Assembly: GCF_022682495.2 (NCBI RefSeq)
Contig: NC_071387.1
Span: forward strand, 195,402,143 to 195,466,142
Length of the DNA: 64,000 nt
Reading direction: 5' to 3'
Source: Desmodus rotundus
Taxonomy: Eukaryota > Chordata > Mammalia > Chiroptera > Phyllostomidae
Part shown: positions 3,231-62,615 of the stretch, piece by piece
Position numbering within the stretch: the first letter of the stretch is position 1
How the letters are laid out: every line of letters begins with the position of its first letter
Translations under genes and position numbers: made by a program
The notes under the pieces: generated by a model
Told to the model about the DNA's origin: nothing
What the model saw: the letters and a program-made list of their open reading frames with translations, nothing else
The model's database searches: none

Positions 3231-6200
3231 ATCATGAAAACCATTGCATTTTTCTCAATCTTTGTCACCACCAGCTTCTGGAAGGCTAAGAAATAAGTAT
3301 TATGTTTAAGGGAATGAAAATAACTGTATATTTATGTTACCAGTTTCAATCTCTTGCTTATGTTCTATAGAGAAATCAAGACAATTACTATTTAACTTAT
3401 GCTTCATTATGTAACCAGTAGAAATCCAAATAATTTGCCTATAAGAATGTTTTTAAAATAAATATATCATTGTACACTAATTATTGACTCTTTTCACACA
3501 TAATTTACATAATTGAATTGATAACCAGTGAATATATCCATATAATGGTGGGTTCAAAAGTTGAAATAATAAAATCACTAGCAAATCTTTTAAGCTTTAT
3601 GGAGTGCTCCCTCAATGAAGTAGAAGAACATTAGTAGGTTATTCTTAGAAGCTAGCACCAACATTATTCTTACCTCAGTCAACTTGTGAATATAAGGTGC
3701 TGCTTTACTGCCTTCAACATAATGTAAATATAATTTATATCACACATAATTCATAAAACAATGCTTGTGTTACTTATTTTTGTCATTATTTACAAAAGCT
3801 ACAATAGGACCTCATGAATTTGGGACCTGCTGAGAGAATTTGTCATAAATGTAATATTATATTTTATATATTTAAAATATACATGATGCTCAAAAATGAC
3901 ATAACACATTTTTGTCTTATAAATCTGAAGCATCCTAACTCACTTTGTATCACCCAAAGTAGACATAAGTTATTTCCTCATTATAAATCTATTTTCTGTG
4001 TTAAACTATTCATCTAAAAGCCTTCAGAAAATTAAATAAATGAATTACAGTTATACTGAAAGTAGTGTATATTGCAATAAATGAGTCACTTATTGTGATT
4101 TGTATGAATGTTACAAGCAAACAACCTCATATGAAACACTATATTTTAATACATGGAACATGGTAGAATTCACAAATAATAGTTTGTTAGAGAGCTCTCC
4201 CATTTTATATGGTAAAACATTAATAATTCAATTTCTATTGGATTCTATAAATGTATCTGAATTACTGTATTTAATATTTACAACATTACAAACTATGATA
4301 AAATTTGTCATAAAATATTTATAGCAACCCTAAAATCTAGGATTATCAGACAGCCATGGCAGAACTCTGATTTTATTCACCCTTCTCCTGATGGCCCTTT
4401 GCCAATTTTAGCTTTTTATCCTACTCTAGTTACACAGTATTATTCTAAATCATTTATTCTAGGGTTGTTCTCTTCACTAATTAACATTGGACATGATTAT
4501 TATAGAGAATTTTTTAAATTCAATATAAAGGGAAGTTTTCTGGGATTCTTCTAAGAAGTTCTTTGTTATTCTTCTGAAAGAAGACCAAATAGCATTATTC
4601 TATTTTATCTACTGGAAGCATTTCAAACTGATGGATACGATTATCAGCATATGATGCCTATAACTACTGTAGTCACTCTTGGAATCTTAAGGTCAAAAAC
4701 AGGTGTGTCACAGAAAACCTGATCTGTACATGACATTCAGAACCACAGAATTAACTACCATGTATGTAACACCACTGCCTCTGCCCTCCTTGTTTCAGAG
4801 TATTTAATGACTTTTCTGTTACCCACTGGCCGTTAATTATGTACATGTTAACCTGTGATATTAATAGAAGCATGGTGATAATTTTCTATTAATAACATAC
4901 ATTTCTAGCAATAATAGAATCAGCAACTAGGTAGTATTTATTTATTACTTGGCATAATATAAACCATTAAAGGTTGCATTTAAATTTTTTAATGTCCTAG
5001 ATAATGCTTTGTGAGAAAGCACACAAATAGCAGACTAGGGAAGATGTATTATGCCCTATGTGTATGATTATAGAGTTTCAGATTTTCTATATGTCTGTCT
5101 CTGTCTCTCTCTGTTTTCCTTATATGATAATTTTTCTTCACTTAATATGCATTTAATATAATCTTAAAAACAGAACTTTAGATAAATTAACTTTTTTCTA
5201 AGTCAAATCCATAATTGAAAACATTAAGGGACAGCCCCATTGTCTGAATTTAACTGAATTGATTAAAATGTTCACAAAAAAAGTACATCTGGCATAAAAG
5301 CTCAATTTAAGTAAACTCTGTATTTTAAAATTACTTACATTAACTGTGAAATACAATGGTACACGTTGGGAAAAGTTCAATTTCATAATTATTTGATATT
5401 AAACAATAAATACAATACTAAAATATTATTTGTCAGTTGCAATTTCTTATATATAATACAGAAAAGTGACTTCAAATATTCAATATTTTTTTCTGTACTT
5501 TAAAATTCACATGCAATTTAAGGGAAAAAGGTATTTAAAAATGAATTCAGAGCACATCAAGTATTTTCTCACCAAACAACATGAAGTTCCGATGATCTCC
5601 TAGGTAGAATGTGAAATGTAATATTTTGGTTGGATGTGTACACTGTATTCTAATTAGTTTCCTGTTAAAAATAGTACAGCATTACATATATTTAAGTTTA
5701 GTCTAACTTAAATGATAAGCAGTGTTGCCTTTAATGCAATCCATTAATTATAACAATAAAAACCACCTTGACTCTACTGATTGTGTCAGAACAGAATTTA
5801 GGATACTTTGTAAGGTCTTTTCTGTTATTATTTTCATTAATTTCACTATGCTCAGCAGTATTGGTGCTGATTTGCATTCCAAAAGATAGTTTCAAATGGT
5901 ATCATGAATTTAACTTAAAACATAAAAGCCAAGGAATTCAAAGTTAAGCTCATGTTAGAATTTGTTATAATCCCTATTAAAACTGGGCAACTTTTAAATT
6001 TTGCATATTTTTCATTTATAATGCTCTCTAATAGTGTTGGCCTTACTGCTCAAAGACACAGAATAAATGTTTAAGACTCAAGGTTTAATGGACTTTGTAG
6101 AACCTTTGTCCATCTATGATTTTCTTTACCTAGCTGATTTTAAATTATTTGCTGTGAAATAACTATGCTTCTTTTATTCAGAAATAGTTAATATGTATCT

Positions 6201-7570: not shown

Positions 7571-7859
7571 TACTTCAGTTTTTAAAAACAAAATCATTAC
7601 TATTCTATTACAGTTGTCCCAATTTTTCCCCTTTTGCCCTCAATCACCCAGCCTACCCCTCGCTCCCACAGTCAATCTCACAGTCAATCCCTGCTACCAG
7701 TCCATATCCATGGGGCATTTCTACATGTTCTTTGACTAATCCTTCTCCTTCTTTATACCATTATCCCTCTCTCCCTCCCCTCTGGTCACTGTCAGTCTGT
7801 TCCATGTCTCCATGCCTCTGTTTCTATTTTGCTCATTCATTCATTTTGTTCACTAGATT

Positions 7860-10800
7860 ATTCTTATAGGTGAGATCATATGGTATTTGCCTTTCACTGC
7901 CTGACTTATTTCACTTAACATAAGCACACTAGGTCCATCCATGCTGCTACAAAGGGTAGGAGCTCCTTCTTTCTTTTGCTGTGTAGTATTCTATTTTGTA
8001 AATGTACCACAGTTTTTTTTTTGATCCACTCATTTGCTGCTGGGCATCTAGATTGCTTCCAGCACTTGGCTATTGTAAGTTACTCTGCTATAAACATTGG
8101 GGTGCTTAGGTTCTTTGGAATTGGTGTTTCAGGATTCTGAGGGGATAATCCCAGCAGGGGAATCACTGGATCAAAAGGTAGTTCCATTTTGGGGGTTTTT
8201 GAAGAAATTACATACTATTCTCCACAGTGACTGCATCAGTCTGCATTCCCACAAGAGTGCACTAGGGTTCCCTTTTCTCCACATCCTCAACAGCACTTGT
8301 AATTTGTTTATTTATTAATGATGGCCATTATAACAGGTGTGAGGCAATATCTGATTGTGGTTTTAATTTGCATCTCTCTAATGACTAGAGATGTTGAGCA
8401 TCTTTTCATATGTCTCTGGGCCCTCTGTATGTCCTTCCAGGAGAAGTGTCTGTTCAGGTCCTTTGCCCATTTTTTAATTGGATTGTTTGTCTTCCTGGTA
8501 TTGAGTTATATGAGTTTTTTATATATTTTGGAGGTTCAACCCTTGTCCAATGTATCATTGGCAAATATGATCTCCCATATGGTCAGTTCCCTTTCATTTT
8601 GATGATGATTTATTTAGCTGAGCAGAAGCTTTTTAATTAGATGTAGTCTCATTTGTTTATTTTTTCCTTTATTTGTCTTGCCCTAGGAGATACATAGGCA
8701 AAAATGTTGTTACATGGGATATCTGAAATTTTACTGCCTGTGTTTTCCTCTAGGACTTTCATGGTGTTGCTGCTTATGTTTAAATCTTTTATCCATTTTG
8801 AGTTTATTCTGGTGTATGGTGTAAGTGTATAGTCTAGTTGAATTTTTTTGCAACTACCAGTCAAGTTCTCCCAATACCATTTATTGAAGAGGCTATTTTT
8901 ACTCCATTGTATGTTCATGCCCTCTTTGGCAAATATTAATTGACCATAGAGACATGGGTTTATTTCTGGGCTCTCCATTCTGTTCCATTGATCTAAGCAT
9001 CTATTGTTATGCCAGTACCAGAGTGTTTTGATTACAGTGGTCTTGTAGTATAGTTTGATATGAGGTATTGTGTTCCCTCCTACTTTCTTCTTCTTTCTCA
9101 AGATTGCTGAGGGTATTCGGCTTTCTTTGGTTGCATATAAATTTTTGAAATATTTGTTCTTGGTCTGTGACATATGTCACTGATATTTTAATAGGAATTC
9201 TGTTGAATCTATAGATAGCTTTGGGAAGTATGGACACTTTAATGATGTTACTTCTTCCAATCCATAAACATGGTACATGTTCCCATTTATTTGTATCTTT
9301 TTCAATTTCTTTCTCCAGTGTTCTATAGTTTTCTAAGAAATGTTTTATCTCCTTGGTTCAACTTATTCATAGGTACTTTATTTTTTTTCCTATACTAAAT
9401 AGGATTTTACCCCCAATTTCTCTTTCTGATGGTTCATTCTTGATGTACAAAAATGCCATTGATTTCTGAATATTGATTGTATATCCCACTATTTTTTCAA
9501 ATTTACTTATTAGGTCAAGTAGTTTTTTGGTGGTTCTATGGGGTTTTCTATGTACTTTATCATGTCATCTGTGCACAATGTTGGTTTAACTTCTTGTTTT
9601 CCAATTTGGATGCCTTTTATTTATTTTCTTCTCTGATCACTGTGGCTAAGACTTCCAGTACTATGTTGAATATGGGTGAAAATGGGCACCCTTGTCTTGT
9701 TCCTGATCTTAAGGGTAAAACTTTTAGTTTTTGAGTATGATGTTAGCAGTAGGTTTCTCATACATGGCCTTTATTACATTGAAGTATGCTCCCTATATTC
9801 CCACATTGCTGTGTTTTTATCATAAATGGATACTGTAATTTATCAAATGCTTTTTCAGCATCTACTGATATGATGATGTGATTTTTGTCTTTTGTTTTGT
9901 TTATGTGGTATATTAGGTTTATTAATTTACAAATATTACATCAATTTTCCATCACTGGGATGAATCCTACTTGATCAGGTTGTATGACATTTTTAATGTA
10001 TTGGTGGATCTGGATTGCCAATATTTTGTTGAGGATTTTAGCATCTATGTTTATCAGAGATATTGGTATCCTGTTTTCTTTCTTTGCTGTGTCCTTACCT
10101 GGTTTTTATAATGTTGGCCTTATAAAAAGAGTTTGGGAGTGTTCCCTCTTCTTGAATTTTTTGGAATAGTTTAAGAAGAATGGGAGTTTGTTCTTCTTTG
10201 AATGTTTGATAAAAGTGCTTGGGAAGCAATCCAGCCCAGGGTTTTTGTGTGCTGGATTTTTTTTTTAATTACTACTTTAATTTCACTAGTTGTTACCTGT
10301 TTATTCAGGTTTTCTGCTTCTTCTTTATTCAGTTTTGGAAGATTGCATGTTTCTATAAATTTATTCATTTTGCCCAGGTTGTCCAATTTCTTGGCATATA
10401 GTTTTTCATAGTAATTTATTACAATCTTTTGTATTTCTCTGGTATCGTTTGTAACTTCTCTTTTATTTCTGATTTTATTTGGGGGGTCTTCTTTCATTTT
10501 TTTCTTTATGAACTGGTTAAAGGTTTGCTATATTTGTTTATCTCTTCAAATTACCAGATCCTGGATTCACTTATCCTTTGATTTTTTTCTTTTTTGTTTA
10601 GTCTATATGTCATTTAATTCCACTCTGATCTTGATTATTTCCTTCCTTCTACTTTCTCTGGGCTTTGTTTGTTGTTGTTCCTCTAGTTCTTGTAGATGTA
10701 AGATTAGGTTGTTTACTTGAGATTTTTCTATCTTCTTTAGCTAGCCCTATATTGCCCTCTCGGGACTGTCCTCACTATGTCCCATAGGTTTTGTGTTGTT

Positions 10801-11382: not shown

Positions 11383-12340
<958 letters not shown>

Positions 12341-12394: not shown

Positions 12395-13937
12395 CAGCAG
12401 AGTCTAATGTTTGCCACTGTCTTCTCTTCCTGGGTCCACCCTGGTAATGCCAAACAATGTCCCAGTCTAGCGTGAGGCAGCATGTTTGAGACTACAGGCA
12501 ATCCACAGTCTGTAACTGGCTCCTTCAGGCTTAGTGATCCCCACTGTTCTGCCCTGCCAGCTTTCCGTCAGCACAAGGCTCAGGAATAGTTCATTTAATG
12601 TCATAGAGCACTGCCCTTACCTACTCCACCTGTCTCCAGGGGGAGCCTCTGGTGCAATCAGGAGGGTGGAATCATTGGGTCACCCCAGTTCAGCCTTCAG
12701 GGAAGATTATGGGAGTATTTCCCTGCCCCACCTCAGTCCTTGGTCTGTCCCAGATTATTTCCAATAGTGCATAATTTCTGATGAATTAGCTATCCATTTC
12801 CTATGAGGGGCTAATCTGTGTAAAAGGGTCAGTTCTTTCCTCCATGATGCTGATGGCAGCTGTGTATAAGAGCCAAGGCTGGAGGTTACCCTAAATACCC
12901 ATTGCTATTCCTGTCTCTAATATCTGTGCTCTTCTGGTTTCAGTGAATCAGGGCCTGAGGAGCCAGCATAGCTGGTAGCGTCCAATAGAAGTTCAGAAAG
13001 AGCCCTTTTAGAGCTTCTTGTTCTTTCCCCTGTGGACATACACCAAGCAGGGGACTCCTGAGCCTGTTCTCACTGATCTGCGAAGTCTGCAATCCTGTAG
13101 GTAGCATAGGCATGCTGCCTGTGAGGGGACCTGTCTGGCTGCAACAGATGTCAGGAGTTCAGCTCCTGGCCTGGAAGTCTCACTCTTGCAGGAGACCCAT
13201 ACCTAAGTCTCTGCTCTGTGCAGCCCCCTGCTCACCAGCTTTGCTGGGTCATGTCCCGTAATCCCTTCCCCATGCCACTTTCTATTCTTCTTGTGTAGGT
13301 GGGCTCAGTGGGACCGAACTGCACTTTCACTCTGGTTTCGTTGTTGGCAGAGCCCTTATGCACAAGAGCACAAGGTCCCCGCCCAGCCACAACTCAGCTC
13401 TCCTTTCACAAAAATCTGTGTGGCACCTACATTGCAGCCCCAGCCATGGTTCAGCACCCCTGTGACCCACCTCCCCAAAAAGCAAAAAGTCTCTCTCAAT
13501 CAAGGCTGACCACAGTCAATCAGTGCCGCCAGCAGTTTGAGGAGATAGAGTTTCTCTCTGGAGCTCTCCCAGTCGGTGCTGAGGCTATGGCCATGGTGCT
13601 CACTGTGTGTGTGAAGTCTAGGTCTCCTGGACTCTGTATATCCTTCCAAGTCTCTCCCTGTGTGGGACCAGGGACTCCACTCCAGGATGGGAGCAAACCA
13701 CCAAGCTGTATTTTCTGTCATTTTCTCCTCTGCTGCAGGCTCCTCTCACAGGACATTTCCCTCTCAACTTATAAACTCTCTTACTGGATGGTGCAAAGCT
13801 TTCTCTGTATTCCTTGTCTTCAAAAATCCCATCAGTTGATATTCTATTGATTGTTCAGGTCACTTGTCGGAAGATCAGCTGAAAATCCAAGCAGGTGGGC
13901 TCAGCTTCCACTCAGCCACCATCTTTCCTGTCTCATG
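12395..13937 (-). promoter_or_regulatory. L1 5'UTR (promoter-bearing region)
   Basis: About 1.5 kb of relatively GC-rich sequence at the 5' end of the long minus-strand L1. In L1 elements this region carries the internal pol II promoter. It ends at the 5' start motif gatggtggctgagtgg (minus strand) right beside the flanking duplication, so the 5' end appears complete. Several open frames run across it in both directions, including one of about 180 codons, but they match no protein I recognise and are best seen as chance frames. Confidence 0.6.
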
Positions 13938-22297: not shown

Positions 22298-22707
22298 GGG
22301 ACCAAAGTATTTTTTTAATATATTTATTGATTATGCTATTACAGTTGTCCCATTTCCCCCCTTCACTCCACTCCAATCTGCCCACCCCCTCCCTCCCACA
22401 TTCCCCCCCTATAGTTCATGTCCATAGGTCATACTTATAAGTTCCTTGGCTTCTACATGTCCTATACTATTCTTACCCTCCCCCTATTTTCTACCTACCA
22501 TTTATGCTACTTGTTCTCTGTACGTTTCCCCCCTCTCTCTCTCTCCCACTCCCCTATTGATAACCCTTCATGTGATCTCCATTTTTGTGGTTCTGTTCCT
22601 GTTCTAGTTGTTTGCTTAGTTTGCTTTTGTTTTTGTTTTAGGTGTGGTTGTTAATAACTGTGAGTTTGCTGTCATTTTTACTGTTCATATGTTTTATCTT
22701 CTTTTCC

Positions 22708-23691
22708 TTAGGTAACTCCCTTTGACATTTCATATAATAAGGTCTTGGTGATGATGAACTCCTTGAACTTGACCTTATCTGAGAAGCGCTTTATCTGCCC
22801 TTCCATTCTAAATCATAGCTTTGCTGGATACAGTAATCTTGGATGTAGGTCCTTGCCTTTCATGACTTGGAATACTTCTTGCCAGCCCCTTCTTGCCTGT
22901 AAGGTCTCTTTTGACAAGTCAGCTGACATTCTTATGGGAACTCCTTTGTAGGTAACTGTGTCCTTATCACTTGCTGCTTCTAAGATTCTCTCCCTCTGTG
23001 TAATCTTGGGTAATGTAATTATGATGTGCGTTGGTGTGTTCCTCCTTGGGTCCAGCTTCTTTGGGACTCTCTGAGCTTCCTGGACTTCCTGGAAGTCTAT
23101 TTCCTTTGCCAGACTGGGGAAGTTCTCCTTCATTATTTGTTCAAATAAGTTTTCAATTTTTTGTTCTTCCTCTTCTCCTTCTGGCACCCCTATAATTTGG
23201 ATGTTGAAACATTTCAAGATGCCCTGGAGGTTCCTAAGCCTCTCCTCATTTTTTTGAATTTTTGTTGCTTCATTCTCTTCTGGTTGAATGTTTCTTTCTT
23301 CCTTCTGGTCCACACCATTGATTTGAGTCCCAGTTTCATTCACATCACTATTTGTTCCCTGTACATTTTCCTTTGTTTCTCTTAGTGTAGCCTTCATTTT
23401 TTCATCTAATTTGTGACCAAATTCAACCAATTCTGTGAGCTTCCTGATTAACAGTGTTTTGAACTGTGCGTCTGATAGGTTGGCTATCTGTTTGCTGCTT
23501 AGTTGAATTATTTCTGGAGCTTTGAAGTGTTCTTTCACTTGGGCCTTTTTTTTTTGTCTCGGTAAGCCTGTTACATAAAGGGGTGGAGCCTTAGGTGTTC
23601 CCTGGGGCAGGGTGACACTGGTCGCTGCGCTGTGATGTTGTATGTGGGTGAGGGGCCAAGGGGGAGCAATGGCGCTTGCTCCACTTTCCAC
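22708..23691 (-). pseudogene. HAL1/L1 ORF1p-like gene with one premature stop
   Basis: ORF1p of L1-type elements is an RNA-binding trimeric chaperone. This frame runs 327 codons to its natural TAA at 22708-22710, with a single in-frame TGA at 22813-22815 (codon 293). Sequence resumes in the same frame after it (RMEGQIKRFSDKVKFKEF). Residues 60-155 form a charged, heptad-like segment (KLTELVEFGHKLDEKMKATL) fitting the coiled coil. Residues 160-250 fit the RRM (NIQIIGVPEGEEEEQKIENL, QEVQEAQRVPKKLDPRRNTP). From 255 comes the C-terminal domain (SADLSKETLQARRGWQEVF). The first Met is used here, but Leu43 in GLPRQKKK probably replaced the family's true start Met. No frameshift is seen, so decay is recent relative to the surrounding L1 pieces. 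Confidence 0.88.
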
Positions 23692-24255
23692 CGGATTTTA
23701 GTCACTCCCTCTACTACCCACAATCAAATTGGGCCCCTCTAGTGCTGATTCCCTAGTGGGTGGGCCTGTGCACGCTCTAGGCCCCTGTGGGTCTCTCCAA
23801 TGACCTCTCCTGTGAGCCTGGGAGTTTCTCCTGCTGCCTCAGCCCCCACAGGTGTTTTCAATCAGAGGTTTGAGGCTTCATTTCCCCGCACTGGGTCCCT
23901 GGGTTGCACAGTCTGTTTTGCTCCCCCACTGTTCCTCCGGGTTTATCTGTGCGCAAATGTGCAGCCATGGGGTCTGCTAGCTGTCACACTGCCTGCCCCG
24001 TTCCACCCACACTCTGCCACATCTCCAGGTCTGGCGACAGCAACAGGAGTCCTCCGCCCTGGCTGCCTGTCTTTGACCCTCCTACTGGTCTGGGTGAGTG
24101 TTTCTTCTTTATCTCCTTGGTTGTCAGACTTCCCTGTGGTTCAATTTTCTGTCAGTTCTGGTTGGTTTTTGTTTTTAAATTGTTGTTGTCCTTGCTTTTG
24201 GTTGTGCGAGGAGGCACAGTGTGTCTACCTAGGCCTCCATCTTGGTTTTCCCTTG
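23692..24255 (-). promoter_or_regulatory. 5'UTR of the half-L1
   Basis: About 560 bp, C/T- and G/C-rich relative to the surroundings, from the 5' start at 24255 to the ORF1 frame. L1-type 5'UTRs hold an internal promoter. Open plus-strand frames across it (up to 162 codons) are chance frames on the opposite strand. Its sequence differs from the 5'UTR of the long L1 at 12395-13937. Confidence 0.55.
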
Positions 24256-24268
24256 GGGACCAAAGTGT

Positions 24269-27112: not shown

Positions 27113-27332
27113 TGCCTTGGCTGGTGTGGCTCAGTAGATTGAGCACCGGCCTGTGAAACAAAGGGTCACTGGTTCGATTCCCAGTCAGGCCACATGCCTG
27201 AGTTGTAGGCCAGGTCCCCACTGGGGGGGGGGGGTACATGACAGGCAACCACATATTGATGTTTCTCTCCCTCTCTTTCTAGGTCCTTTCCTCTCTGTCT
27301 AAAAACAAATAAACAAATAAAATCCTAAAAGA
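27113..27332 (+). mobile_element. VES SINE with 17-bp TSD
   Basis: The best-preserved VES copy in the window. It has pol III promoter boxes: A box tggctcagtag at 27127-27137 and a consensus B box ggttcgattcc at 27171-27181. It then has a G run, a pyrimidine-rich 3' part and an A-rich tail (aaaaacaaataaacaaataa). Perfect 17-bp direct repeats aagaaatgtgttttatc flank it at 27096-27112 and 27333-27349, the mark of L1-mediated insertion. Confidence 0.96.
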
Positions 27333-27349
27333 AAGAAATGTGTTTTATC

Positions 27350-42284: not shown

Positions 42285-43309
42285 TGACTGAAGAGAACAT
42301 CAACAAAGTGAAAAGGGAGCTAACCATATGGGAAAACACATTTGCCAATGATACTTTGGACAAGGGTTTGATTTCCTAAATACATAAATATCTCACACAA
42401 CTCCACAACAGGAAGACAAGCAATCCAATTAAAAAATGGGCAAAGGACCTGAACAGACACTTCTCCAAGGAAGATGTACAAAGGGCCCATAGACACATGA
42501 AAAAATGCTCATCACTAACCATCAGAGAGATGCAAATTAAAACCACAGTGAGATACCACTTCACACTGGTCAGAATGGCCATCATAAATAAATCAACAAA
42601 CAAGTACTGGCGAGGTTGTGGAGAAAAGGGAACCCTAGTGCACTGTTGGTGGGAATGCAGACTGGTGCAGCAACTGTGGAAAACAGTATAGAATTTCCTC
42701 AAAAAAACTAATGATGGAAGTGCCTTTCGATCCAATGATCCCACTCCTGGGACTATACCCTAAGAATCCTGAACCACCTATTCAAAAGGAATGTATGCAC
42801 CCCAAAGTTCACAGCAGCATTATTTACAATAACCAACTGCTAGAAACAGCCTGAGCGTTCATCAGTAAGAATGGATCAAAAAACTACGGTGCATTTACAC
42901 AATGGAATACTACACAGCAGAAAGAAAGAAGGAGTTCCTACCCTTCCCAACAGCATGGATGGAACTGGAGAGCATTATGCTAAGTGAAATTAGCCAGGAG
43001 GTGAAAGAAAAATGCCATATGATCTCACCTATAAGAGGAACATAATCAACAAAACAAATGAGCAAAATAGAACCAGAGACTTGGAAATAAAAAACAAAGT
43101 GATACTAACCAGAGGGGAGGGGGAAGGGAGTAATGGAGGAAGAAGAGGAAGGGACAAACCAAGGAACACGAACAGAGGACTCATGGACACGGAAAATGGG
43201 GGGATTGGCTGTGGGAGTGGAGGGGGATTGGGTAAGGGTGATCAATGGAGAAAAAGGCAGGGCAACTGTAACTGAACAACAATAAATGAAAAAATAAAAA
43301 TAAAAGGTA
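42285..43309 (+). mobile_element. 5'-truncated L1, ~1 kb
   Basis: A well-preserved plus-strand L1 end: ORF2 C-terminal sequence (acatcaacaaagtgaaaagg; ccaattaaaaaatgggcaaa; aatggaatactacacagcag), then the 3'UTR from about 43080, tip caactgtaactgaacaacaa and an A-rich tail. Coding frame is broken. Short frames on both strands within it, including the 122-codon minus one at 42376-42744, are shadows. I found no clear target-site duplication. Confidence 0.92.
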
Positions 43310-43516
43310 GGTACAAAACATCTCTTTCTTTGGAGTAATCATTTTTTTTTTATTTTAAGTATGTTTTCTGTGTCTCTGAACCATAGCTGTGACACCATGA
43401 ATTATGTATCAATAAATTTAATTAAAAACTTAGTGACTTTATAACTATGTTAGGAAACTTGTAAGGTTAGAGTTAACTCTTGCATTTTGAAATCTCAAAT
43501 AAGATATAGGATTAAG

Positions 43517-44699: not shown

Positions 44700-44891
44700 G
44701 ATCTGGCCGGTGTGGTTAGTGGATTGAGCACCATACTGGGAAGCAAAGGGCAATAGGTTCGATTCCCAGTCTGGACACATGCCTGGGTTGCAGGCCAGGT
44801 CCCCACTGGGGGGGGTGTGAGAGGCAACCACACACTGATGTTTCTCTTTCTCCCTCCCTTTCCCCCTCTCTAAAAATAAATAAATAAAGTC
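44700..44891 (+). mobile_element. VES SINE
   Basis: Plus-strand VES with a consensus B box ggttcgattcc at 44756-44766. The A box is one base short (tggttagtgg near 44713). It has the G run and pyrimidine-rich 3' part, then the tail taaaaataaataaataaa. Imperfect flanks (tttaaaaagtattg before, tttaaaatgcatattg after) may be a diverged target-site duplication. Confidence 0.95.
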
Positions 44892-44960
44892 TTTAAAATG
44901 CATATTGTAAAACATCAATTTATGCCCTGAGTATCATGGGACAAAAATCAACTGGATAAA

Positions 44961-60402: not shown

Positions 60403-60413
60403 TATTCATTTCT

Positions 60414-60626
60414 CTTTTTAAAAATATGTTATTTATTTATTTTTAAGGAGGGGGAAGGGAGGGAGAAAGAGAGAGAGAGAAACATCAATGTGTGGTTGCC
60501 TCGTGCACATCCCCTACCAGGAACCTGGCCTGCAACCCAGACATATGCCCCTACTAGGAATCAAACCAGTGACCCTTTGGTTCGCAGGCCTGTGCTCAAT
60601 CCACTGAGCTACAACAACCAGGGTCC
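60414..60626 (-). mobile_element. VES SINE, minus strand, with 11-bp TSD
   Basis: Reverse-oriented VES: T-rich start, GA-rich segment, aacatcaatgtgtggttgcc, and tRNA-like head. The B box on the minus strand is ggtttgattcc (60557-60567), one base from consensus. Perfect 11-bp repeats tattcatttct flank it at 60403-60413 and 60627-60637. A plus-strand 115-codon frame spans it and is a shadow. Confidence 0.95.
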
Positions 60627-60637
60627 TATTCATTTCT

Positions 60638-62250
60638 GTACCTCAGATATTTTGCAAACACAGAGAAACAGTCCTACTTTTTAAACTCATTTTTATAAAA
60701 CTATCTAAAAACAAGGGTTTAAAGTTGTAAGGTTACAGGTGTTCATATGAAAACAATGATTACTTTAATTGATTGTAATGCCTCCTCTTTTAGATTTTAA
60801 AAACATTAGAAGTTAAAATGTACAGAATTAATAAGAACAATCTCACCTGGAGCCTGACAAGCTGTCACACATACATTTAAAAAAAACATTATGCAAACAT
60901 GGTGTAGACCTCGTCTCCATGGTCAGTTATTTGAGGAGTATCATGGTATAAACCTCCACAGAGCACCAGGAGAGTATGAAATGCTAAACATTTGACAGGC
61001 AGCCAAACTATCCTAATCAATTTATACCCTCCCCCCAAAATAGCTTTTTAACTAAGAAGTTTAAGATGCTTTTGGTACATTGCAGAAAAAATTAAAATAA
61101 AAAATATTTTTAATACTTTAACAGAAAAAATTAATATTACTTTTCATAATTATTTTGTGATATTGTTAAAACTTTAGTTATTCTGGACATGAAATATTGA
61201 CTGTAAAATGTCAAAATGCCATGATATATAGGTAAAAAATATTACCTGAGTAATGTTTCATTCCAAGATATAAATATTTATTGAATAATGATAATAAATA
61301 TTGAATAGTGATAAATAGGCTAAAGTTATACAAATTATAACAGTGTAAGTTAAAGGTAATTTACTATTGACTCTCCTCCTTATGCCCCCCCACACTTCAC
61401 TTTACATGTCCATCTTTTACAATAAGGTCATTTTCGCTGGTACAAAGAGACATAATCCTATCCTCTCTCTGCAATAGCAACTTTACTTGTTGCTCTGGCC
61501 TCCTACTTTCCTGATGACATTTGCCAAGGCTTACCATGGAGCTTTTTCTATTTGTAGATCTGCCCTTCACAGAAAATAAACCATGTGTGGCAACCTCAGA
61601 TCAAAAGCCTCCGACTGGAGGTAGAAACATTTGCTCATTGTAATTGAACTTCTTTCTTCCCAGGCACTGCACAACCCCCGCCCTTAGTCAGGAAGAACTT
61701 TAAATTTCAAAGTTAATTAGATAAATTTCAAAGTTAAGGTAGGAGTTTCTCACATATTTCAGCATGCCCCCAAATCTGTCAACTTTGCTATTTTTGTCTT
61801 TAAGTTTTATGCATATAGTCTTTACTATTCTTTTAGTTTGACTGAAACCTTCATATTTTTTCCATGATGAGACTGACTTTTAATATATTTTCCAGTCACA
61901 TGGGCATTTTTCTTAATGATTGACTTTCCATGAAAACTTCATAATTCTTTTATTTTCTTCCTGTTCATTTCTCCTTTTTTTCCTACACTGAAATACACAC
62001 ATACACTATACTTAGAAGAAATGTTATTTATTTCCTTTTACTGAACTATTTATCAATAATTCTTTTACTGCATTCATTTTTATTTGTGTGTACCCTACTT
62101 TGCATTTCACATAATTAAAATGCAGCAAACTTCAAAGGCTAATATCAAACCACGAAAACACCACCAAAACCAACAGCTTATAAATTGGTAAAATTATACC
62201 CACTCATATTTTTATGAACATTAAAATGATAAACTCACAACTATCAACCA
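60638..62250. other. No gene; unclassified
   Basis: No gene. A short direct duplication aaatttcaaagttaa occurs twice at about 61702-61738. 61420-61690 is less AT-rich and unrecognised. Confidence 0.4.
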
Positions 62251-62254
62251 CTGA

Positions 62255-62615
62255 ATCTAAAAAACAAAAACAAAAGGAAACTAAGCAAACAACCTGAATA
62301 GAAACAGAATCATAGATATAGAGATCATTTTGGAGGGTTATCAACACAGAGGGAGAAGGGGGAGACTGGGGATAAAGGAACAGGGATTAAGAAGCATAAC
62401 TGGTAGGTGCAAAATAGACCGGGGTGGGAGGGGTGTTAAGAATAGTATAGGAAATGGAGAAGCCAAAGAACTTACATGCACAACCCCTGGACATGAACTA
62501 AGGAGGGAGATTGCTGGAAGGGAGGGTGGTACCAGGCTGAGGGGGGTAAAGAGGGGAATATTGGAACAAATATAAGATCATAATTAGAAATATATACTTA
62601 AAAATAAAATAAATA
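62255..62615 (+). mobile_element. L1 3' end, old
   Basis: Plus-strand L1: the ORF2 end region (gaatctaaaaaacaaaaaca, agaaacagaatcatagatat), then the 3'UTR (ggaaatggagaagccaaaga, catgaactaaggagggagat) and an A-rich end. The 81-codon frame here is a chance frame in the G-rich 3'UTR. Confidence 0.6.

Follow-up and report, generated by a model that had tools for sequence, protein, structure and literature searches.

The element on the minus strand at positions 22298-24268 of the window, by which we mean the whole 64,000-nucleotide stretch of Desmodus rotundus DNA analysed here, raises a simple question: is it a full-length member of a family of retrotransposons that carry ORF1 only, or is it an L1 that has lost its ORF2? 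HAL1 elements are a known kind of retrotransposon, described in passages of PMC5753468 and PMC5322556 as having ORF1 only, several origins and a dependence on L1. The window copy consists of a target-site duplication, a 5'UTR, ORF1, a 3'UTR and a second duplication, with the following features:

24268-24256, minus strand: 5' target-site duplication ACACTTTGGTCCC, by direct reading
~24255-22312, minus strand: body of the half-L1 element
23548..24255, minus strand: 5'UTR of the half-L1
22708..23547, minus strand: ORF1, for which homology gives 276-279 codons and a stop
23212..23373, minus strand: segment found where the L1 coiled coil has its C-terminal heptads, lacking both RhxxhE motifs
22918..23205, minus strand: RRM-like domain (PF02994) in ORF1p, spanning residues 163-258 of a translation of 292 aa
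22720..22908, minus strand: C-terminal domain (CTD; PF17490, Pfam), interrupted by a TGA, its end set from homologues
22312..22707, minus strand: HAL1 3'UTR and A-rich end
22310-22298, minus strand: 3' target-site duplication ATACTTTGGTCCC, by direct reading

The coordinates, both element ends and the 13-bp duplication had been proposed in a sequence-only reading and were confirmed; the two duplications are identical at 12/13 bases. The ORF1 of the window copy matched the Pfam families PF02994 (3.3e-23) and PF17490 (3.7e-8) as well as five solved chains named LINE-1 ORF1P or ORF1 protein, of which the best was 2ykp (5.8e-38). Near the start of the 5'UTR lies CCAAGATGG (24245-24237), which we take to be the YY1-type start of L1/HAL1 5'UTRs. 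No relatives were found in viral contigs, phages or plasmids, in a search from which records of the window's own genome were possibly left out.

The window copy of HAL1 is dead, because its start codon is lost and its frame is broken. The usual ATG (23538-23536) is a GTG in this copy, compared to ATG in the other 17 of the 18 aligned ORF1 rows, and an in-frame TGA at 22815-22813, after YPAKL, interrupts ORF1 ahead of its stop at 22708. The frame had been described as open apart from one stop, which does not hold, since the usual start is gone as well. An optional upstream ATG (23547-23545) is found in 10/18 aligned rows and reads AAG in the window copy and 7 others. No L1 ORF2 was recognisable between the ORF1 stop and the 3' tip of the window copy. 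The earlier claim of no ORF2 at all is correct as far as recognisable coding sequence goes, although the stretch past the ORF1 stop could still hold what is left of an ORF2 start. An ATG located ~33 bases past the stop resembles such a remnant by eye; alignment scores of the putative remnant against young and old L1 were no better than those of shuffles (p 0.145 and 0.972, respectively), and a search of the host genome with a primate-type ORF2 start gave 0 matches.

The host assembly (2,119,635,868 bases) was searched with a 41-mer spanning the junction between ORF1 and the 3'UTR. With up to 3 mismatches, this junction was present at 12,986 places (6321+6665), compared to 0 for the backwards control. 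A comparison 41-mer over the ORF1-ORF2 junction of a young L1, which covers one L1 subfamily only, was present at 3961 places (1963+1998; control 0). When the whole element was used as the probe, 40 of 20,879 first-look candidates were scored, and all 40, the window copy included, spanned the junction; the other 39 were 87-91% identical to the window copy. Together with 30 loci chosen via Pfam score, the window copy and the 39 whole-element matches made up the 70 ORF1 loci that were fetched. The HAL1 junction was detected in 69/70 (64 exact, 5 within 3 bases), where the 40 element-matched loci are biased toward the junction and the 30 Pfam-chosen loci are not; among the Pfam-chosen loci alone it was detected in 29/30. 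The exception among the 70 was L062, an older ORF1 without a HAL1 3'UTR. These results strongly support the proposal of an ORF1-only HAL1 family rather than a broken L1, and the genome search that had been suggested as a check on it recovered a family, not a junction unique to this locus. The absence of ORF2 is a family trait of these HAL1 copies, and the common junction most likely reflects descent from one ORF2-less element. That an ordinary L1 lost its ORF2 through an internal deletion at the window locus alone would suit the L1-like ends and ORF1, but was rejected as having a negligible probability, since the junction recurs with differing duplications in 69/70 loci and at 12,986 places.

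Target-site duplications of the HAL1 copies were scored as length minus 4 per mismatch, and flanks of different copies were paired as the control. A score of at least 10 was reached by 23/40 copies compared to 5.3% of mismatched flanks, and a looser cut-off (length at least 10, up to 2 mismatches) gave 25/40 copies compared to 11.9% in the control. A chance origin of the duplications was rejected on these comparisons. Many HAL1 copies have A-rich tails together with target-site duplications, and these are the features of insertion by L1-type target-primed reverse transcription. The 5' end is also conserved among HAL1 copies. Comparison of L031-L047 with L001 and L009-L025 revealed three 5'UTR architectures: form A is colinear, form B is without positions 71-104, and form C is diverged over 105-335 and then has a second start at 253-266, like a partial duplication of a 5'UTR monomer. 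At L029:2435-2820, a second HAL1 3'UTR (80%) lies directly behind a full-length HAL1, where either the 3' part was duplicated or another copy inserted in tandem into the tail.

Two L1s of the host genome, L082 and L083, resemble HAL1 in having an ORF1p with RRM and CTD and in their 3' ends, and differ from it in having an ORF2 (1273 aa) and a 310-aa ORF1p with a long coil. The last ~135-145 nt of the HAL1 3' end were 69-71% identical to L082 and L083 (E on the order of 1.7e-12 and 8.2e-14). At the 5' end, 64 bases from element position 24 were 78% identical to L082, ~500 bases upstream of its ORF1 (E 3.4e-8), and the same stretch had no match in L083, these being the two L1s compared. ORF1 DNA was 67-70% identical between HAL1 and L1. 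In a tree of the RRM and CTD, 12 HAL1-type and 13 L1-type proteins separated at 100/100, and no exchange of ORF1 between HAL1 and the sampled L1-type proteins was seen among these 25. SINEs such as Alu or Ves rely on L1 enzymes in trans, in which HAL1 would be like them; the difference is that HAL1 encodes a protein with signs of selection. The similarity of the ends is consistent with mobilisation of HAL1 in trans by L1 ORF2p, and we infer from these ends, and from the known behaviour of HAL1 and SINEs, that L1 ORF2p would be its engine.

The sequence-only reading had also stated that the element keeps the chaperone. According to passages of PMC5940361, the RRM of mammalian L1 ORF1 proteins is preceded by seven heptads, among which lie two conserved RhxxhE trimerisation motifs; trimers need no more than the C-terminal heptads, and no tested deletion was tolerated in a cell assay. 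Parts of PMC9410894 report that the ORF1 of all vertebrate L1s has a coil and that, with a mutated coil, the tightly compacted complex with nucleic acid does not form. Both RhxxhE motifs are present in the young bat L1 (SRLDEAEDRISELED). In contrast, HAL1 has SDGKETGTQINGVDQ or near variants at the matching columns, with no RhxxhE, and ~24-27 coil residues further upstream are missing from its ORF1p. In proteins that had a sufficiently long stretch ahead of the RRM, RhxxhE was found in 1/105 HAL1-type compared to 58/71 L1-type proteins, taken from 120 listed of 3709 matches and 120 listed of 1894, respectively, where the type of each protein (P0001-P0240) was set by sequence and not by DNA context. 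Coil scores exceeded 0.5 over a median of 0 residues in HAL1-type proteins (range 0-56; any in 33/79) and of 107 residues in L1-type proteins (range 55-127; any in 47/47) with a scoring window of 28. With a scoring window of 21, the medians were 24 (any in 58/79) and 105, so that a short coil stub adjoining the RRM persists. At E <= 1, the L1 ORF1 matched 32 Pfam families, compared to 3-6 for each of six HAL1-type proteins; the 25 families listed for the L1 ORF1 included many coiled-coil models at residues ~40-148, none above its own cut-off. AlphaFold predicted a helix at 31-140 of the L1-type protein P0123; the comparison with HAL1 was set aside, as the counterpart, HAL1-type P0009 (41 rows), gave no usable structure (pLDDT 36). 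Collectively, these sequence comparisons indicate that HAL1 ORF1p retains the RRM and CTD but has lost most of the trimer-forming coil, so that the statement on the chaperone holds with this qualification.

The altered segment is a family feature and not damage to single copies. Over codons 59-112 of 63 genomic copies, the commonest residue exceeded 90% at 48/54 codons, an agreement that is expected anyway among copies so alike. Conservation of the altered N-terminal segment likewise extends, for the most part, over 41 HAL1-type proteins, and proteins labelled as coming from Phyllostomus discolor (P0035) and Artibeus jamaicensis (P0075, P0080) have it.

Selection on ORF1 was assessed using the non-CpG variants of 63 core copies, with six older HAL1s and L062 left out of the 70. 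Singleton variants comprised 106 synonymous and 368 nonsynonymous changes, an omega-like ratio of 1.05, compared to 37 and 78 (0.81) for variants in 2-3 copies and to the small counts of 29 and 45 (~0.50) for variants in at least 4 copies (Fisher versus singletons, p 0.0034). Variants in at least 2 copies, taken together (66/123), also differed from singletons (Fisher, p 0.0012), with shared variants counted as independent events. The 40 DNA-chosen copies alone gave similarly ordered ratios of 1.11 for singletons, 0.74 for 2-3 copies and 0.51 for at least 4. The regional ratios are weak, being based on small counts and a rough neutral expectation: codons 1-108 gave 1.42 for singletons, a value above 1 that marks the neutral model as rough, 1.29 in 2-3 copies (10/38) and 0.35 in at least 4 (13/15), and the RRM and CTD gave 0.89, 0.62 and 0.63 (16/30), respectively. 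Private variants are thus about neutral, as expected for dead copies. Since the core copies have one deletion junction, the shared variants most likely post-date the loss of ORF2, and ORF1 was probably under selection after that loss. The fewer amino-acid changes among shared variants suggest that HAL1 depended on its ORF1p in order to spread. HAL1 RNA might instead have been moved as a long SINE would be, by L1 ORF2p and possibly L1 ORF1p, while its own ORF1p stayed idle. Alu is mobile although it encodes no ORF1p, HAL1 ORF1p is without most of the coil that L1 needs, and variants in 2-3 copies are closer to neutral (0.81), all of which would fit an idle protein; we nevertheless consider this improbable, as the ratio is ~0.5 in variants shared by at least 4 copies and ~1 in private ones, and as a stop-free stretch of at least 287 codons was present in 24/70 ORF1 copies, although 30 of the 70 had been chosen by Pfam score.

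If ORF1p was selected, it is possible, though we put the chance below even, that bat HAL1 long ran on a trimer-less ORF1p and that selection kept the RRM-CTD together with a new conserved N-terminal segment. The short coil might instead have been present already in an extinct L1 lineage that still had ORF2, in which case it would be uninformative on HAL1 itself. The HAL1-type ORF1 forms a separate group whose L1 parent is unsampled, and the motifs are already absent in those older HAL1 copies with a readable segment, from which the upstream coil piece is also missing. However, these older copies have intermediate letters (QINDLE in L049 compared to the QINGVD of the core copies), which looks like a change still under way inside HAL1, and no L1 with a HAL1-type coil was encountered in searches that were not aimed at one; we put the chance of an inherited short coil below even as well. 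If bat HAL1 did run on a trimer-less ORF1p, the trimer that is essential to L1 would be unnecessary for the help that ORF1p gives to an ORF1-only element, HAL1 ORF1p would work as a monomer or mixed with L1 ORF1p, and bat HAL1s would amount to a naturally occurring separation-of-function mutant of the L1 chaperone. A coil-poor yet apparently selected ORF1p, in a family with ~13,000 junction places, offers a way to test which functions of ORF1p must be supplied to an RNA in cis and which can be borrowed.

Together, these results make it very probable that the window element is a dead full-length copy of a bat HAL1 family that was presumably mobilised by L1 ORF2p and whose ORF1p was probably selected with its coil mostly gone. 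In the mechanism that we propose, a 2-kb HAL1 RNA would be transcribed from a promoter in its own 5'UTR, translated into ORF1p and then packed mainly with that protein. In place of the usual stable trimer, HAL1 ORF1p may bind this RNA singly, in loose oligomers or in mixtures with L1 ORF1p. L1 ORF2p would then copy the RNA in trans via target-primed reverse transcription, using the shared 3' end.

The bat copy had been thought comparatively young, which is only partly the case. Non-CpG K2P distances over element positions 430-1940 of the 40 DNA-matched copies had a mean of 0.066 and a minimum of 0.037, and those over the ORF1 of the 63 core copies a mean of 0.065 and a minimum of 0.027; the six older HAL1s had average distances of 0.11-0.31 over ORF1. 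When the low-divergence copy L041 was used as a second probe, its best relative was 94% identical (40 scored of 13,310 candidates). In comparison, six L1 pieces picked by RVT_1 score were 93.7-99.2% alike pairwise, with the closest pairs at 98.7 and 99.2%, and the L1 pair with both ORFs open (L082 and L083) was 98.7% identical over 5.3 kb. Open frames of 371-1293 codons, many of exactly 1275, were found for the 150 RVT_1 matches listed. The ranking of ORF1s by Pfam score is uninformative on age, as 29/30 of those fetched were HAL1 and the young L082 ORF1 was absent among the 150 ORF1s listed. The divergence comparison with L1 that had been suggested as a check therefore shows the closest L1 pairs to be more alike than HAL1 copies. 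From the best HAL1 relative of 94%, established with two probes, against 98.7-99.2% for the closest L1 pairs, the spread of HAL1 seems to have stopped in this host and that of L1 to have continued. If a rate of 2.2-2.7e-9 per site and year is assumed, a divergence of 0.033 per copy would correspond to ~12-15 million years. Bat HAL1 is thus a case of an ORF1-only element spreading widely and then apparently stopping while L1 continued.

By the features compared, namely an L1-type ORF1, no ORF2, duplications and an A-rich tail, the window element is a HAL1. Bat HAL1 entries presumably exist in Repbase, and the main paper on mammalian HAL1 (half-L1) retrotransposons is reportedly Bao and Jurka 2010. 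Mammalian HAL1s (HAL1/HAL1b in human, HAL1-1H_Cpo and others in guinea pig, HAL1-1C_Cja in marmoset) likewise have ORF1 only, and share with the bat family the lack of ORF2, the A-rich tail, the target-site duplications and the dependence on L1 enzymes, as far as passages of PMC5322556 and PMC5753468 describe them. Human HAL1 has nearly 2,100 copies in a passage of PMC5322556, where they were counted otherwise, compared to 12,986 junction places in the bat. Human HAL1b ORF1p is labelled with a coiled coil in a figure legend of PMC7586669, unlike bat ORF1p, which is without both RhxxhE motifs; the N-terminus of HAL1b ORF1p is predicted to be mostly disordered in a passage of the same paper. Parts of PMC3183009 report young HAL1 families in marmoset and guinea pig and none among the Myotis families below 1%, and part of a review (PMC8535693) reports active HAL1 in rat. 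L1TD1 is also derived from ORF1 and has no ORF2, according to part of PMC4161310, but it is a domesticated host gene, in contrast to HAL1, which forms a repeat family of thousands of copies with duplications. The excerpts of the literature on HAL1, coiled coil and LINE-1 described no ORF1p that lacks the trimer motifs, and a selected HAL1 ORF1p with so little coil may therefore be the new part, in a comparison that left Bao and Jurka 2010 outside.

Several other repeats were observed in the window. An older 5'-truncated HAL1 on the plus strand at 62213-62604 begins just past the ORF1 stop, and its 3'UTR is 73.8% identical to that of the window copy; a further old HAL1-like 3' end (75% identical) lies at 391-545 on the plus strand. 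Old L1 3' halves with ORF2 remnants by eye are located at 7601-10527 (minus strand) and 42298-43310 (plus strand); within them, 42298-43193 and 7701-8607 are 79% identical, and their 3' ends resemble that of HAL1. Four related ~200-bp repeats, which we assume to be Ves-type bat SINEs, are found at 858-1062, 27114-27339, 44704-44898 and 60413-60627 and would point to a yangochiropteran host. A long GAAA/TTTC simple repeat at 11522-11849 appears as KERK frames.
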